From Stella humosa (GTDB lineage Bacteria; Pseudomonadota; Alphaproteobacteria; ATCC43930; Allostellaceae), in the NCBI RefSeq assembly GCF_006738645.1, contig NZ_AP019700.1:756001-820000 (forward strand): a stretch of DNA of 64,000 nt, given 5' to 3'. A program made the position numbers and the translations under genes. This document shows positions 743-18,625 of this stretch, piece by piece. The stretch's first letter is position 1; the number at the start of each line of letters is the position of its first letter. The notes beneath the pieces were generated by a model that made no database searches, had not been told where the DNA came from, and saw only the letters and a program-made list of their open reading frames with translations.

Positions 743-1951
743 ATGTCCCTGCTGCGCGAGGCGGCTTTCCGGCGCGTCTGGCTGGTCGGCACGCTGGTCG
801 GCACCGTCCGCTGGATCGAATTCCTGGTGACCGGCGTCTATGTGCTGGAACTGACCGGCTCGCCCGTTCAGGTGGCGCTGATGACGATGCTGCGGATGGT
901 GCCGATGCCGCTGCTCAGCGCCTTCGCCGGCGCCATCGCCGAGCGGATCAGCCGGCGCCGGCTGCTCCTGGCCCTCCTGTCGGTCGGCCTGCTGGTTTCG
1001 CTGGCGCAGGCCGGTCTCGCCTGGTCCGGTCGGCTGGAACTGTGGCACGTCGCCATCGGCGTCGTCGTGAACGGCGCCATCTGGGCGATCGACATGCCTG
1101 TGCGCCGCACGATGCTGGGCGAACTGGCCGGTCCCGGGCGCACGGCCGGCGCCATGGGGCTCGATGCCGCCACCAACAATGCCACCCGCATGCTGGGGCC
1201 GGGCGTCGGCGGCCTGCTGCTGGAAACGACCGGCATCCATGGCGCCTTTCTGCTGGGATCGGTCCTCTATGCCGGCGGCCTCTGGATGCTGCTGGGCCTG
1301 CGGGCCGCCGAGGCCCCGCCGCTGGTTGGTGCCCTGCGCCTGTTCCAGCGCATCGGCGAGGGGCTGCGCGTCATCCGCGGCGACCCGGCCCTGGTCGGCA
1401 CCCTGACCATCACGGTCGTCTTCAACGTCTTCGCCTGGCCCGCCACGGCGATGGTGCCGGTGATCGGCGAGCAGCACCTGCGCCTGACGGCCTTCCCCAT
1501 CGGGCTGTTGATGAGCGCGGACGGGCTGGGCGCGCTGCTGGGCGCCATCCTGGTGGCGCACGGCGCGCGGCCGACGATGTTCCGCGGCCTCTACATGCTG
1601 GGGGTGGCGATGTTCGCGGCCGCCTCGATCGTCTTCGCGCTCAGTCCCTGGCCGCTGCTGTCGGGCCTGGCCCAGGTGACGGCCGGGTTCGGCAGCGCCT
1701 GCTTTGCCACCATGCAGGCGACCATCGTCTTCCTGTCGGCGCCACCCGCCGTCCGCGCCCGGGTGATGGGGGTGCTGTCGGTCTGCATCGGCACGGCGGT
1801 GCTGGGCTTCGTGCATCTGAGCCTGCTCGCCCACTGGCTGGGCGGGGTCGCCGCGGCACTGGTGACCAGCAGTGCGGCGCTGGTGGCGCTGGCCCTGGTG
1901 GCGGTGTTCCAGCCGGCCGTACGGCCGGGGGCGCCGTTCGTGCCGCGATAG
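743..1951 (+). CDS. MFS transporter, 12-helix exporter type
   Basis: A 402-residue integral membrane protein made of about twelve hydrophobic segments. It begins with 'REAAFRRVWLVGTL', the usual first helix of major facilitator exporters of the MFS_3/enterobactin-exporter type. A basic cytoplasmic loop 'AERISRRRLLL' follows helix 2, the place of the family's loop 2-3 motif. I chose the ATG at 743 because hydrophobic sequence starts right after it. The frame stays open upstream with TTG (698) and GTG options but gives only low-complexity arginine/proline sequence there. Substrate unknown. It stands alone between the amidase terminator and the monooxygenase gene. Confidence 0.85.
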   Translation: MSLLREAAFRRVWLVGTLVGTVRWIEFLVTGVYVLELTGSPVQVALMTMLRMVPMPLLSAFAGAIAERISRRRLLLALLSVGLLVSLAQAGLAWSGRLELWHVAIGVVVNGAIWAIDMPVRRTMLGELAGPGRTAGAMGLDAATNNATRMLGPGVGGLLLETTGIHGAFLLGSVLYAGGLWMLLGLRAAEAPPLVGALRLFQRIGEGLRVIRGDPALVGTLTITVVFNVFAWPATAMVPVIGEQHLRLTAFPIGLLMSADGLGALLGAILVAHGARPTMFRGLYMLGVAMFAAASIVFALSPWPLLSGLAQVTAGFGSACFATMQATIVFLSAPPAVRARVMGVLSVCIGTAVLGFVHLSLLAHWLGGVAAALVTSSAALVALALVAVFQPAVRPGAPFVPR

Positions 1952-2059
1952 CACGGCCCCACTTGGCCGTTGCCGCAGGGCGACGGCGGGGGATAGCCTC
2001 CTTCGAATAGGTCAGGATCGGCCGCAGCGTCGCCAGCCACCCCTGGAGGGTCCGCCCAG

Positions 2060-3634
2060 ATGGACAGCACCGAAGCCGGCTTCGCCACCGCCGCCCCGCA
2101 ATCCGCCGCCCCGCAATCCGTCGAGCATTTCGACGTGCTGATCGTGGGCGCCGGCATCTCCGGCGTCGGCGGCGCCTACCACCTGGCGACGCAATGCCCC
2201 GGCACCAGCTTCGTCGTGCTGGAATCGCAAGGGGGGTTCGGCGGCACCTGGCGCACGCACCGCTACCCCGGCATCCGCTCCGACAGCGACCTCTACACCT
2301 TCGGCTATCGCTTCAAGCCCTGGACCGGGGCGCCGATCGCGACCGCCGAGGAAATCCTGCGCTACATGGGCGAGGTGATCGCCGAGAACGACCTCGCCCG
2401 CCATATCCGCTACGGCCATGCGATCACGGCCGCCGCCTGGTCCAGCGCGGAGAATCTCTGGACGATCGACGCCGTCCGGGCCGAGGACGGCCAGCCGGTC
2501 CGCTTCACCACCGGCTTCCTCTGGATGTGCCAGGGCTACTACCGCCACCAGGGCGGCTACACGCCGGAATGGCCGGGCCTGGCCGATTTCCAGGGCCGCA
2601 TCGTCCACCCGCAGGAATGGCCCGACGACCTCGACGTCAGCGGCAAGCGGATGGTGGTGATCGGCTCGGGCGCCACGGCCGCCACGCTGGTGCCGGCGGT
2701 GGCCGATCGCACCGCCCATGTCACGATGCTCCAGCGCTCCCCCACCTTCTTCCGTACCGGCCGCAACGCCATCCAGCTTGCCGACGAGCTGCGCCAGCTC
2801 GAGGTGGACGAGACCTGGATCCACGAGATCGTGCGCAAGAAGATCCTCTTCGACCAGTCGGTCTTCACCCAGCGCACCTTCGACGAGCCCGAGGCGGTGA
2901 CGCAGGAGCTGCTGGCCAACGCCCAGGAGCATCTGGGGCCGGACTACGACGTGGCGACGCACTTCACGCCGGGATACCGCCCGTGGCGCCAGCGCATCGC
3001 CTTCATCCCCGATGCCGATCTCTTCCGCAGCATCCGCGAGGGGAAGGCGTCGGTGGTGACCGACGCAATCGAGCGCTTCACGCCGGGCGGCATCCGCCTG
3101 GCCTCGGGCGCCGAGCTGGAGGCCGACATCATCGTCACGGCGACGGGCTTCCACCTGAACGTCCTGGGCGACATCGCCTTCACGATCGACGGCCGGCCGC
3201 TCGATTTTGCCGACACCGTCACCTATCGCGGCATGATGTTCACCGGCGTGCCCAACATGGCCTGGGTCTTCGGCTATTTCCGCGCGAGCTGGACGCTGCG
3301 GGCCGACCTGGTGGCCGATTTCGTCTGCCGCCTGCTGAAGCACATGCGGTCGATCGGTGCCAGCCGGGTGGTGCCGGCCCTGCGGCCGGAAGACCGCGAC
3401 ATGGCGCTGCTGCCCTGGATCGACCCCGAGAACTTCAACCCCGGCTACCTGATGCGCGGCATGCACCTGCTGCCCAGGCGCGGCGACAAGCCGGAATGGC
3501 AGCACACCCAGGACTACTGGACCGAAAAGAACGCGTTCCCGGCCATCGACCTGGACGACCCTGTCTTCGTCTATGACGGGCCGGCGGACGCCAGCAGGGC
3601 CAGGGTCCGCGAATCGGCTTTTCCCGCGCAGTAG
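2060..3634 (+). CDS. Flavin-containing monooxygenase, Baeyer-Villiger type
   Basis: A 524-residue FAD/NADPH enzyme. The FAD-binding Rossmann motif GAGISG is at residues 30-35, followed by 'GGTWRTHRYPGIRSD', typical of class B flavoprotein monooxygenases. The Baeyer-Villiger fingerprint FxGxxxHxxxW is present at residues 177-187 (F177, G179, H183, W187). A second nucleotide motif 'VVIGSGATAATL' follows for NADPH. Such enzymes insert oxygen into ketones to give esters or lactones, or oxygenate N or S atoms. The substrate is not predictable. An SD-like GGAGG lies shortly before the ATG. Its last 64 bases overlap the 3' end of the convergent DUF1810 gene. Confidence 0.92.
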   Translation: MDSTEAGFATAAPQSAAPQSVEHFDVLIVGAGISGVGGAYHLATQCPGTSFVVLESQGGFGGTWRTHRYPGIRSDSDLYTFGYRFKPWTGAPIATAEEILRYMGEVIAENDLARHIRYGHAITAAAWSSAENLWTIDAVRAEDGQPVRFTTGFLWMCQGYYRHQGGYTPEWPGLADFQGRIVHPQEWPDDLDVSGKRMVVIGSGATAATLVPAVADRTAHVTMLQRSPTFFRTGRNAIQLADELRQLEVDETWIHEIVRKKILFDQSVFTQRTFDEPEAVTQELLANAQEHLGPDYDVATHFTPGYRPWRQRIAFIPDADLFRSIREGKASVVTDAIERFTPGGIRLASGAELEADIIVTATGFHLNVLGDIAFTIDGRPLDFADTVTYRGMMFTGVPNMAWVFGYFRASWTLRADLVADFVCRLLKHMRSIGASRVVPALRPEDRDMALLPWIDPENFNPGYLMRGMHLLPRRGDKPEWQHTQDYWTEKNAFPAIDLDDPVFVYDGPADASRARVRESAFPAQ

Positions 3635-15737: not shown

Positions 15738-16832
15738 ATGACCGACGACCTGCCGCAGGCGGCGCTTGCGGCCTTCTCCGCCGACTATTTCGAGGCCCGC
15801 GAGAAGTTCCGCCGCTGGGCGCCGTCGGCGGTCGCCTACCCCTCGGCCGCGAAAGGGCCGGGGGGCGAGGCGCTGTCCACGGATGTCGCCTGGTTCGGCG
15901 ATCCGGCCGCGCCCAAGGTGTTCGTCACCGTGTCCTCGACCCATGGGGTCGAGGGCTATTGCGGCTCGGCCTGCCAGGTCGACTGGCTGGCGGGCGGCGG
16001 GCCGGGGCGGCTGGCGGCGGACGAGGCGGCGCTGGTCATCCACGCCATCAACCCCTACGGCTTCGCCTGGGACCGGCGCGTCACCGAGGAGGGCTGCGAC
16101 CTCAACCGCAACTTCGTCGATTTCGCGGCCGGCGTGCCCGAGAACGCAGGCTATGACGAGCTGGCCGTCCACATCGTGCCGCCCGCCCTGGACGGGCCGG
16201 TGTTCGCGGCGGCCGAGGCCGCGGTCGCCGATTATCGCCGGCGCCACGGCGAGAAGGCGTTCCAGATCGCCCGCAAGTCCGGGCAGTACCGCCATCCGGC
16301 CGGCGTCTTTTTCGGCGGCTTCGCCCCCTCCGGCCCGCGCCGCACGCTGGAGCGGATCGTGGGCGACTACCGGCTGGCCGACCGCGCGCGCGTCGTCGTC
16401 GTCGACTTCCACACTGGCCTCGGCCCGTTCGGCTATGGCGAGATCCAGACCGAGCAGGTGGCGGGCCTCGACTGCTATCACCGGGCACGCACCATGTTCG
16501 GCCGCTCGGTCACCTCGTCGGAACTCGGCACCTCCACCTCGGTGGTGCTGAACGGCACGATGGACGGCTACTGGTATCAGTTGCTGGGCGACCGCCAGAC
16601 CTATGTCTGCCTGGAATACGGCACCTTCGACCCCGAGAGCGGGCGGCGGGTGATGCGGCAGGACCATTGGCTGCGCGCGCATGGCGGCCCCAGCCCCGAC
16701 CCGGCGCTGGCCGCCCGCTTCCGCGCCGAGATGCGCGCCCACTTCTTCCCCGACAGCGACGACTGGAAGGAAATGGTGGTTGCCCGCGCCCGCCAGGTGC
16801 AGCGGCAGGCGGTGGAGGGGCTGCGCGGCTAG
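15738..16832 (+). CDS. DUF2817 (M14-like zinc carboxypeptidase-fold) protein
   Basis: A 364-residue cytoplasmic protein of the DUF2817 family, related to zinc carboxypeptidases and aspartoacylases. Likely zinc ligands are H69 and E72 in 'SSTHGVEGYCG' and H225 in 'VVDFHTGLGPFGYGE'. 'NPYGFAWDRR' and 'CDLNRNFVDF' form the substrate-binding region. It lies 25 bases after the M24 hydrolase gene at the end of the ABC operon, so it probably deacylates or cleaves an intermediate from the imported compound. That job is inferred from position. A broken second copy of the same gene family lies at 22130-22366. Confidence 0.85.
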   Translation: MTDDLPQAALAAFSADYFEAREKFRRWAPSAVAYPSAAKGPGGEALSTDVAWFGDPAAPKVFVTVSSTHGVEGYCGSACQVDWLAGGGPGRLAADEAALVIHAINPYGFAWDRRVTEEGCDLNRNFVDFAAGVPENAGYDELAVHIVPPALDGPVFAAAEAAVADYRRRHGEKAFQIARKSGQYRHPAGVFFGGFAPSGPRRTLERIVGDYRLADRARVVVVDFHTGLGPFGYGEIQTEQVAGLDCYHRARTMFGRSVTSSELGTSTSVVLNGTMDGYWYQLLGDRQTYVCLEYGTFDPESGRRVMRQDHWLRAHGGPSPDPALAARFRAEMRAHFFPDSDDWKEMVVARARQVQRQAVEGLRG

Positions 16833-16849: not shown

Positions 16850-18379
16850 ATGGCCGCCGTTCGCAACCTGATCCTTGTGCTCGGCGACCAGCTCACACCG
16901 AGCGTGTCCAGCCTTGCCGGTGCGGATCGGTCGCGCGACCGCGTGCTGATGGCGGAGCTTCGCTGCGAGGCGACCTACGCCTGGCATCACAAGAAGAAGA
17001 TCGCGTTCCTCTTCTCCGCCATGCGCCATTTCGCCGAGGAACTGCGGGCCGCCGGATGGACGGTCGACTATATGAAGCTGGGCGGCCCGGACGATCCAGG
17101 CAGCTTCACCGGGCAGCTCGCCGTCGCCGTCGCCGAACATCAGCCAGAGCGGATCGTCGTCACGGAAGCTGCCGAGTGGCGGGTCCTGCGGGAGATGGAG
17201 GGGTGGCGGGCGCTGTTTTCGATTCCGGTCGATATCCTTCCCGACGATCGCTTCCTGTGTTCGCCCGACGCGTTCCGCGCCTGGGCCGCCGGGCGCAAGC
17301 AGTTGCGCATGGAGTATTTCTATCGCGACATGCGCCGGCGGACCGGATTGCTCATGGACGGCGATCAGCCGGCCGGCGGCAGATGGAACTTCGACAGCGA
17401 GAACCGGAAGCCGGCGGACATCGACCTGTTCATGCCGCGACCGATGGGGCGCCCGCCCGACGCCATCACCCGCGAGGTGCTGGAACTGGTCGCGGCTCGG
17501 TTCGGCGAGCACTTCGGCGATCTCGAACCCTTCTGGTTCGCCGTCACGCGCGCCGATGCCGAGGCTGCCTTTGCAGCGTTCGTCGCCGATGCCTTGCCCC
17601 ATTTCGGCGACTACCAGGATGCGATGCTGGCGCGCGAGCCGTTCCTCTACCATTCGGTCATCGCGCAGTACCTGAATTGCGGGCTGCTTGACCCGTTGCG
17701 CGTCTGCCGGCAAGTCGAGGCCGCCTGGCGGGCTGGCAAGGCGCCGCTCAACGCCGCCGAAGGATTCATCCGGCAGATCATCGGCTGGCGCGAGTATGTG
17801 CGCGGCGTCTACTGGCTGAAGATGCCCGGCTACGCGCACAGCAACTTCTTCGGTCACACCCGGCCGCTGCCGGATTTTTACTGGACTGCCCGGACCGACA
17901 TGGCCTGCGTCCGGGCGGTGGTCACCCAGACCAGGGAGCAGGCCTACGCCCATCACATCCAGCGACTGATGGTCACCGGCAATTTCGCGCTGCTGGCCGG
18001 GATCGACCCGCACGCGCTGCACCAATGGTATCTGGCCGTCTATGCCGACGCCTATGAATGGGTGGAACTGCCCAACACCGTGGGCATGAGCCAGTTCGCC
18101 GACGGTGGCCTGCTCGCTTCCAAGCCCTATGCCGCCAGCGGGGCCTACATCAACCGCATGTCCGACTACTGCCGATCATGTGCCTACGAGGTGAAGCAGC
18201 GCACGGGGCCGCGGGCCTGCCCGTTCAACGCCCTCTATTGGGATTTCATCGCGCGCAACCGTGAACTGGTCGGTGGCAATCCGCGCATGGCGCAGATGGT
18301 CCGGACCTATGACAATTTCGAGCCAGCCGAACGCCAGCGCATCGGCGACAGTGCGGCCAGCTTTCTGGCGAGCCTGTGA
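16850..18379 (+). CDS. phrB: FeS-containing bacterial (6-4) photolyase (PhrB/FeS-BCP class)
   Basis: A 509-residue deoxyribodipyrimidine photolyase-related protein that uses light to repair UV (6-4) photoproducts in DNA. It starts '[13 protein letters not shown]', standard for this class. The four iron-sulfur cysteines are present: C353, C441, C444 and C457. The corresponding residues in Agrobacterium PhrB are 350, 438, 441 and 454, so the spacing is identical. The active-site histidine pair H368-H369 in '[15 protein letters not shown]' likewise matches 365/366. Length is normal. The ATG at 16850 is where family homology begins. Its TGA overlaps the ATG of the DUF2256 gene by one base. Confidence 0.95.
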
Positions 18380-18546
18380 TGGAACGGCGCTACACCAAGC
18401 CGAACCTGCCCGAGAAGACCTGTGCTGCCTGCGGACGGCCTTTCGCCTGGCGCAAGAAGTGGACGCGCGACTGGGATCAGGTGAAGACCTGCTCCGACCG
18501 CTGCAAGGCCGACCTGCGCCGCAAGGGCAAGGTGGTGCCGGAATAG
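18379..18546 (+). CDS. DUF2256 zinc-finger-like small protein
   Basis: A 55-residue protein whose ATG overlaps the photolyase stop (TGATG at 18377-18381). It has two CxxC-type pairs: '[18 protein letters not shown]' early and '[14 protein letters not shown]' late, together with basic ends. These are the marks of DUF2256, a small probable zinc-binding family of unknown role, found next to or fused with photolyase/cryptochrome genes in many bacteria. The tight coupling here suggests the two proteins are made together. A direct contribution to photorepair or FeS/flavin handling is inference. Confidence 0.88.
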
Positions 18547-18558
18547 ACCGACCATCAT

Positions 18559-18598
18559 CGTCGCGATGCCGGGGCCGGCCGGCCTCGGCATCGCGACG
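18559..18598. terminator. Very stable hairpin between convergent genes
   Basis: CGTCGCGATGCCG (18559-18571) pairs perfectly with 18586-18598. The inner 14 bases add a G-U pair and four G-C pairs around a GGCC loop, so the stem has about 18 base pairs. It lies 12 bases after the DUF2256 stop and 27 bases after the end of the aminotransferase gene on the other strand, so it could stop transcription from both sides. No T-tract is present. Confidence 0.65.
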
Positions 18599-18625
18599 GG
18601 CCGGGGGCAGTGGGCCGGCCGGACC

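Follow-up and report, generated by a model that had tools for sequence, protein, structure and literature searches.

A DUF2256 protein encoded in overlap with a prokaryotic (6-4) photolyase gene follows this enzyme family across genomes irrespective of the Fe-S cluster

In the window analysed here, a stretch of 64,000 nucleotides from Stella humosa, the gene of a prokaryotic (6-4) photolyase overlaps by one base a tiny downstream gene of the family DUF2256. Among the Pseudomonadota and Bacteroidota surveyed, DUF2256 was found almost only in genomes with this photolyase family, which is strong evidence of a functional link between the two proteins. DUF2256 probably helps in repair rather than building the cluster, because it stays where the enzyme has lost its Fe-S cluster. 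The reading that we favour, at slightly less than even confidence, is that DUF2256 serves the prokaryotic (6-4) photolyase family as a dedicated accessory protein and would act with the enzyme on DNA.

Results

The photolyase gene and its small downstream neighbour

The following features of the window bear on the analysis.

15738-16832, forward strand: DUF2817 gene directly upstream, context only, ending 17 bp before phrB (PF10994, E 3.3e-97)
16850-18379, forward strand: prokaryotic (6-4) photolyase gene (phrB), FeS-BCP type by similarity, 509 aa, stop included (PF04244, DPRP, 277 bits, E 1.3e-82; phmmer against 4dja, E 1.3e-208)
17906-17908, forward strand: codon of the Fe-S cysteine C353 (sequence and alignment of relatives)
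17951-17956, forward strand: codons of the His368-His369 pair, kept in 80/81 and 81/81 relatives, respectively
18170-18181, forward strand: codons of the Fe-S cysteines C441 (18170-18172) and C444 (18179-18181) (sequence and alignment)
18218-18220, forward strand: codon of the Fe-S cysteine C457 (sequence and alignment)
18377-18381, forward strand: TGATG stop/start overlap of one base (sequence)
18379-18546, forward strand: DUF2256 gene, 55 aa, stop included (PF10013, E 4.3e-21; single match in the genome)
18421-18432, forward strand: first putative zinc-ligand pair, C15-x2-C18, invariant in a 60-row alignment and in 138 rows
18490-18504, forward strand: second putative zinc-ligand pair, C38-S-x2-C42 (same alignments)
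18559-18598, forward strand: perfect 18-bp hairpin after DUF2256, without a T run (RNA fold of 18545-18620, MFE -52.3, z -3.8)

The photolyase reading frame runs from an ATG at 16850 to a TGA at 18377-18379, and among solved structures PhrB of Agrobacterium (4dja) is the closest relative of its product. Residues 6-508 align with PhrB 3-505 without a gap, and the residue numbers of the window enzyme equal the PhrB number plus 3. We take the PhrB cysteines to be C438, C441 and C454 and the PhrB His pair to be H365/H366, a pair which presumably sits at the lesion site of the enzyme. Cys350 of PhrB is named in a figure legend in the accessible part of its report (PMC3204975). The PF04244 match, the full-length similarity to PhrB, the four [4Fe-4S] cysteines and the His-His pair that characterize the FeS-BCP subtype are all present, and the enzyme is predicted to be a prokaryotic (6-4) photolyase of this subtype, with light-driven repair of (6-4) photoproducts as its likely activity. 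The original prediction had described an FeS (6-4) photolyase with four Fe-S cysteines and a His-His pair, and this description holds (C353, C441, C444 and C457; H368-H369).

The DUF2256 gene starts with an ATG at 18379-18381 and stops at 18544-18546. Its product scored 75.2 bits with PF10013 against a curated cut-off of 25, and was the one match in a whole-genome profile search of the 5.83-Mb genome. Both the TGATG junction and the two CxxC-like cysteine pairs (C15-x2-C18 and C38-x3-C42) are as originally described. If translation began instead at an in-frame GTG at 18376, the protein would have 56 aa and the two genes would share four bases. No good Shine-Dalgarno sequence was seen by eye before the ATG, so reinitiation at this start codon is likely, and the two genes may be translationally coupled.

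The hairpin behind DUF2256, beyond which lies a convergent class-III aminotransferase gene, was not flagged by a scan for T-run terminators. It is a probable end of the transcription unit; lying between convergent genes, it may act as a terminator in both directions or be a dispersed element. The upstream genes in the same direction encode an ABC ATPase, an M24 peptidase and the DUF2817 protein, and the phrB-DUF2256 pair appears to form a unit of its own downstream of another operon. The only FAD_binding_7 match of the genome (G000:C1:3906262-3908926) is distant from the pair and has a DUF1365 gene about 1.3 kb away.

Conservation and fold of the small protein

The small protein is extremely conserved. 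Fifteen positions (L10, P11, C15, C18, R20, P21, F22, W24, R25, K27, W28, W32, C38, S39 and C42) were invariant in 60/60 aligned relatives, all of which matched PF10013. The core was nearly kept in 138 rows from three phyla, the least constant positions being R20 (125/138) and P21 (132/138); these rows remained after three duplicates were dropped and had been selected with a pattern that required the cysteines, an F, an S or N, and a W, outside which fell six loci with a DUF2256 match (L089, L106, L108, L109, L132 and L154). The median net charge of 141 DUF2256 proteins was +9 and their median length 52, and the family carries a basic, Trp-rich stretch, W-R-K-K-W-x3-W.

The C-x2-C and CS-x2-C pairs form the cysteine pattern of treble clefs of the TRASH/FCS/YacG kind. 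According to the accessible text of one report, DUF2256 is placed in the TRASH clan, a metal-binding group, and resembles FCS fingers in its CS-x2-C motif (PMC4047054). The AF2 (AlphaFold) model, examined for the beta-hairpin knuckle and following helix that make up a treble clef, had a pLDDT of 76 and a pTM of 0.49. With this model Foldseek gave no match at E 0.001 or better; its best hit was YacG (4tma, probability 0.75), followed after further YacG chains by an FCS finger (2w0t, probability 0.47), and the structural Z scores of 3.5 against YacG and 3.2 against FCS were weak, under 4. Profile searches matched treble clefs, HIT, FCS and YacG, all weakly, and also L24 ribosomal proteins (best E 0.046). 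The YacG profile PF03884 did not match the window protein up to E 1 and matched 2/60 relatives weakly (best E 0.0026). The best explanation is that DUF2256 is a putative small treble-clef zinc finger of the YacG/FCS kind, a modelled fold whose match is weak, and that it probably binds zinc.

Co-occurrence of DUF2256 and PF04244

Surveys of gene content were made in three phyla; kinship among the genomes inflates all the co-occurrence p-values given here. In 150 Pseudomonadota genomes, drawn evenly from the phylum with a minimum completeness of 90, DUF2256 was found in 29, PF04244 in 32 and both in 27 (Fisher 1.7e-22, phi 0.86). The association also held in Bacteroidota (n=118; DUF2256 in 35, of which 34 over the cut-off, PF04244 in 34, both in 32; Fisher 4.7e-23) and clearly weaker in Verrucomicrobiota (n=115; 8, 15 and 6, respectively; Fisher 4.3e-5).

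Other photolyases were tried as the correlate and rejected, a comparison that covers Pseudomonadota only. FAD_binding_7, which marks them, was present in 71 of the 150 genomes and reached a phi of 0.48 with DUF2256 as against 0.86 for PF04244. DUF2256 occurred in 2/40 genomes with FAD_binding_7 and without PF04244, and it was present in the single genome with PF04244 and without a FAD_binding_7 match. A light-stress module was rejected likewise, on the one marker DUF1365, a light-stress control family found in 43/150 Pseudomonadota (phi with DUF2256 0.51). Among PF04244-positive genomes DUF2256 was present in 21/26 with DUF1365 and 6/6 without it, and among PF04244-negative genomes in 1/17 and 1/101, so that DUF1365 adds nothing once PF04244 is fixed. 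The original prediction had suggested a partner for the photolyase; this reading is strongly supported, because the co-occurrence outranks that with other photolyases and with light-stress control in Pseudomonadota, and 27/29 and 32/35 of the DUF2256 genomes of Pseudomonadota and Bacteroidota have PF04244.

Among 14 control genomes, PF04244 was found in Caulobacter vibrioides, Synechococcus elongatus and Haloferax volcanii, and DUF2256 in the first two only. Among the genera listed, six have members that differ in PF04244 (g2, g6, g8, g26, g59 and g62), and DUF2256 varies along with it in four of these but not in g6 or g8; in genera g65 and g88 DUF2256 varies at constant PF04244.

Gene linkage and neighbourhoods

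DUF2256 and PF04244 lay within 15 kb of each other in 15/27 Pseudomonadota, 19/32 Bacteroidota and 1/6 Verrucomicrobiota (G395), and both gene orders were found. All 19 linked pairs of Bacteroidota were on the same strand, with DUF2256 first in 18, whereas the window has the photolyase first. In 12/27 Pseudomonadota and 13/32 Bacteroidota the two genes co-occurred more than 15 kb apart or on different contigs.

A genome scan with the window DUF2256 confirmed at least 556 relatives, and the best 80 loci of these were analysed, with neighbours picked from crude gene calls. A photolyase lay within about 3 kb in 31 of these 80, a number that rises to 38 when the other recurrent neighbours (short-chain dehydrogenase, amine oxidase or DCC1-like) are counted as well; a non-FeS FAD_binding_7 photolyase was found in 15, five of them weak or partial. 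Whole-genome PF04244 searches, made for 39 of the genomes of these best loci, were positive in 33: in 8/8 with a photolyase at the DUF2256 locus and in 25/31 of the remainder. In Bacteroidota, DUF2256 loci had a non-FeS photolyase near in 21/30, versus 15/30 for the (6-4) type. DUF2256 often adjoins another photolyase or sits far from any. No natural fusion of DUF2256 to a photolyase was noticed among the loci viewed.

Several side observations were made at these loci. L002, L012 and L018, relatives of the window, have a tight run of a non-FeS photolyase, an FeS photolyase and DUF2256, and on an Acinetobacter schindleri plasmid photolyase and DUF2256 are 3 bp apart. An rpoH-type sigma factor takes the place of the photolyase near DUF2256 in 12 of the best 80 of at least 556 loci (L027, L028, L030, L031, L033, L042, L052, L058, L061, L065, L072 and L081), which belong to Acetobacteraceae or Roseomonas-like genera, L028 being placed only in Alphaproteobacteria; five of these genomes were searched and 5/5 have PF04244 elsewhere. 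In L089 a MerR plus B12-binding (LitR-like) regulator gene (1632-2636, reverse strand) adjoins DUF2256 and photolyase. A second tiny gene, TIGR03643 (model of 72 positions), recurs in DUF2256 or (6-4) photolyase loci: at L227:5144-5398 (reverse strand, 84 aa) and in L017, L113, L124, L153, L186, L206 and L207, the model match having been checked for L227 and L017; our literature search found no paper naming it. DUF2256 is also common on plasmids, with 124 records, including 49 of Pantoea, 12 of Acinetobacter and at least one of Deinococcus radiophilus. No annotated photolyase was found within 5-6 kb of the DUF2256 genes of four plasmids, nor, in an incomplete gene table, an annotated DUF2256 within 4 kb of one haloarchaeal and one cyanobacterial plasmid photolyase. 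Phage records gave no match at E 0.01.

Same-strand junctions from (6-4) photolyase to DUF2256 overlapped in 13/15 measured, the window included, and those from non-FeS photolyases in 11/20. The overlap of photolyase and DUF2256 is more than chance by the 13/15 count, which is biased in two ways: of the possible start codons the one closest to the upstream stop was used, which favours overlap, and many junction loci were picked by likeness to the window DUF2256. The junction count omits L106 and L109, which did not match the search pattern. DUF2256 overlaps unrelated genes too, for example the 3-dehydroquinate synthase genes in L071 and L098.

Photolyases with and without the Fe-S cluster

For each of the 81 genomes positive in the surveys of the three phyla the PF04244 protein was taken, with the window and L048 serving for two of them, and a tree was built with the Fe-S columns left out. 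All four Fe-S cysteines were present in 62 photolyases and none in 19; these 19 also have no loop holding two of the cysteines, and they form one side of a branch with an SH-aLRT of 100. Among Bacteroidota, 15/34 photolyases were FeS-less (their loci include L145, L048, L194 and L201-L204), and DUF2256 was kept in 14/15 of those genomes, within 3 kb of the photolyase in 11/14. The four FeS-less photolyases of Verrucomicrobiota (L223-L226) came with DUF2256 in 0/4, and 11 genomes had a four-cysteine photolyase and no DUF2256. These results show that DUF2256 is independent of the Fe-S cluster, and the restriction to clients with a cluster expected of a maturation factor was absent.

Heterologous expression gives the same answer. 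In the accessible parts of the two reports, recombinant PhrB made in E. coli carries its cluster (PMC3204975), and SePhrB made in E. coli has cluster and FAD and repairs in vivo (PMC9178010). The E. coli control genome had no DUF2256 match at E 0.001, and at E 10 noise below the cut-off. In these cases, therefore, the cluster can be built without DUF2256, and SePhrB does not depend on it for activity in E. coli. The native host of SePhrB, S. elongatus, does have DUF2256.

Exceptions to the association

DUF2256 is dispensable in some lineages. It was absent from 16/81 photolyase genomes (5/32 Pseudomonadota, 2/34 Bacteroidota and 9/15 Verrucomicrobiota), as it was from the H. volcanii control. 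A search of these 16 for a diverged DUF2256 gave some match at E 10 in 15, none over the cut-off and the best at 17 bits, and a regex scan of L140-L146 was empty. When DUF2256 presence is mapped on the tree of the 81 photolyases it switches at least 13 times, in keeping with repeated loss.

In the opposite direction, DUF2256 was well over the cut-off without PF04244 in G119, G143, G157, G159, G161, G168, G179, G182, G260 and G349, and weakly matched in G270 (27.7 bits); the sub-cut-off G199 was left out of this set. Nine of these 11 genomes have a FAD_binding_7 photolyase, which is absent in G182 and G270. Photolyase residues that might mark DUF2256 presence (N477, Y366 and Y74) were tried and rejected; no interface was derived from them because the differences are small and partly lineage-bound, following in part the FeS-less Verrucomicrobiota.

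Discussion

A basic, Trp-rich, putative treble clef that tracks one DNA-repair family regardless of the cluster is read here as a factor that acts with the enzyme on DNA. DUF2256, which we infer to bind zinc and DNA and to contact the photolyase, may hold the enzyme on the lesion-bearing duplex or open it, whereby the (6-4) product would reach the flavin, and the overlapping start and stop would fix the ratio of DUF2256 to enzyme. That it is a true photolyase accessory subunit, a zinc-finger DNA handler which finds or opens lesions and has been kept across phyla, is a tentative proposal that could well be wrong. The 16/81 photolyase genomes without DUF2256 and the repair by SePhrB in E. coli without it speak against an accessory role, as do the genomes that have DUF2256 but no PF04244 and the loci at which it adjoins another photolyase or sits far from any; the nearest fold, YacG, binds a protein, which counts against a DNA-acting DUF2256.

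The original prediction had also offered DUF2256 as a maturation factor for the photolyase. In the form of an Fe-S or metal factor for PhrB, it would pass on or guard iron for the cluster with its cysteines. Four invariant cysteines, the metal-binding TRASH clan as given in the accessible text of PMC4047054, and the strong co-occurrence with the photolyase family suit such a role, which is nevertheless largely refuted and in our estimate close to excluded: it is rejected by the natural experiment of the FeS-less enzymes, with which DUF2256 persists in 14/15 Bacteroidota genomes, by the intact four-cysteine enzymes of 11 genomes without DUF2256, and by the PhrB and SePhrB clusters formed in E. 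coli, which had no DUF2256 over the cut-off, as far as the accessible parts of those papers tell. A useful, non-essential chaperone that helps the photolyase to fold, to stay stable or to take up flavin or antenna would explain the same co-occurrence and the stop/start overlap, and the His pair, kept in FeS and FeS-less enzymes alike (80/81 and 81/81), also suits it. We hold it to be quite improbable, since recombinant SePhrB made in E. coli has its FAD and cluster and is active in vivo (PMC9178010, accessible part), and DUF2256 is basic and was gained or lost no fewer than 13 times across the photolyase tree; with 16/81 photolyase genomes lacking DUF2256, any flavin or antenna help is not obligatory.

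Other readings separate DUF2256 from the (6-4) enzyme. It might belong to the same light or UV response with another target, such as gyrase, the ribosome or a regulator, and make no photolyase contact. The likeness to the gyrase-bound YacG points that way, as do the neighbours: the MerR-B12 (LitR-like) gene in L089, DUF2878 in L087, rpoH in 12 of the best 80 of at least 556 loci, and genes for a short-chain dehydrogenase, an amine oxidase and a DCC1-like protein. We consider this unlikely, though a real competitor, as the distribution of DUF2256 follows one enzyme family more closely than DUF1365, the single module marker tested, which adds nothing once PF04244 is known. Very improbable is a true partnership with the non-FeS FAD_binding_7 photolyase, with the (6-4) photolyase merely co-occurring. 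Overlap at 11/20 same-strand junctions and proximity in 21/30 Bacteroidota loci, against 15/30 for the (6-4) type, would agree with it, but 15/29 Pseudomonadota DUF2256 genomes have at most one FAD_binding_7 match (in 12 of those 15 one match of more than 250 bits, read as class I) while 27/29 have PF04244, and only 2/40 genomes of that phylum with FAD_binding_7 and without PF04244 have DUF2256. Ordinary operon packing, with DUF2256 as a hitchhiker of no shared function, is scarcely credible: the overlaps with 3-dehydroquinate synthase genes in L071 and L098 would suit it, but the co-occurrence holds for genes more than 15 kb apart or on different contigs (12/27 and 13/32), and 25/31 searched genomes with no photolyase at the DUF2256 locus still have PF04244.

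To our knowledge, photolyases are usually described as acting alone. If DUF2256 is indeed an accessory protein, this enzyme class would have a dedicated protein cofactor. The sharp phyletic tie to one DNA-repair family moves DUF2256 from an orphan to a testable photorepair factor, and the FeS-less enzymes found together with it offer a natural control that tells a repair helper from a cluster builder. Recombinant PhrB and SePhrB from E. coli, as described in the accessible text of their reports, are made without DUF2256, and an in-cell role, if real, would be invisible to such assays. Our literature search, whose reach left out most subscription papers, found no paper linking DUF2256 and photolyase, and none for COG4338. 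The accessible text of the two papers found to mention DUF2256 holds no photolyase link, one counting it among the domains frequent in bacterial proteins of up to 50 residues (PMC11796252) and the other being the TRASH clan report (PMC4047054); the accessible part of the PhrB report (PMC3204975) has no mention of DUF2256.

Among known systems, the FeS-BCP enzymes PhrB of Agrobacterium fabrum (4DJA) and CryB of Rhodobacter sphaeroides (3ZXS) share PF04244 with the window enzyme, which aligns with PhrB gapless over 503 residues, has the same Fe-S cysteines and His pair, and differs in nothing notable. FeS-less members of the family are known from the accessible part of PMC9178010 as group M (PromaPL type); they belong to the same family and keep the His pair, whereas the window enzyme has the cluster ligands. 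The FeS-less group found here (19/81) may correspond to group M. YacG (DUF329; 4TMA, 1LV3), which binds DNA gyrase, is like DUF2256 in size, in its two cysteine pairs and in a predicted treble-clef-like fold, but the identity is about 20%, the scores are weak, and DUF2256 is very basic and Trp-rich. FCS/L24e-type treble-clef fingers (2W0T; Rlp24-like chains of pre-60S particles) share the predicted fold class and the CS-x2-C motif; unlike DUF2256 they are domains of larger proteins or ribosomal, and we know of no photolyase link for them. DUF2256 itself (PF10013, TRASH clan) is a family without an assigned role, for which the link to the (6-4) photolyase is new content.
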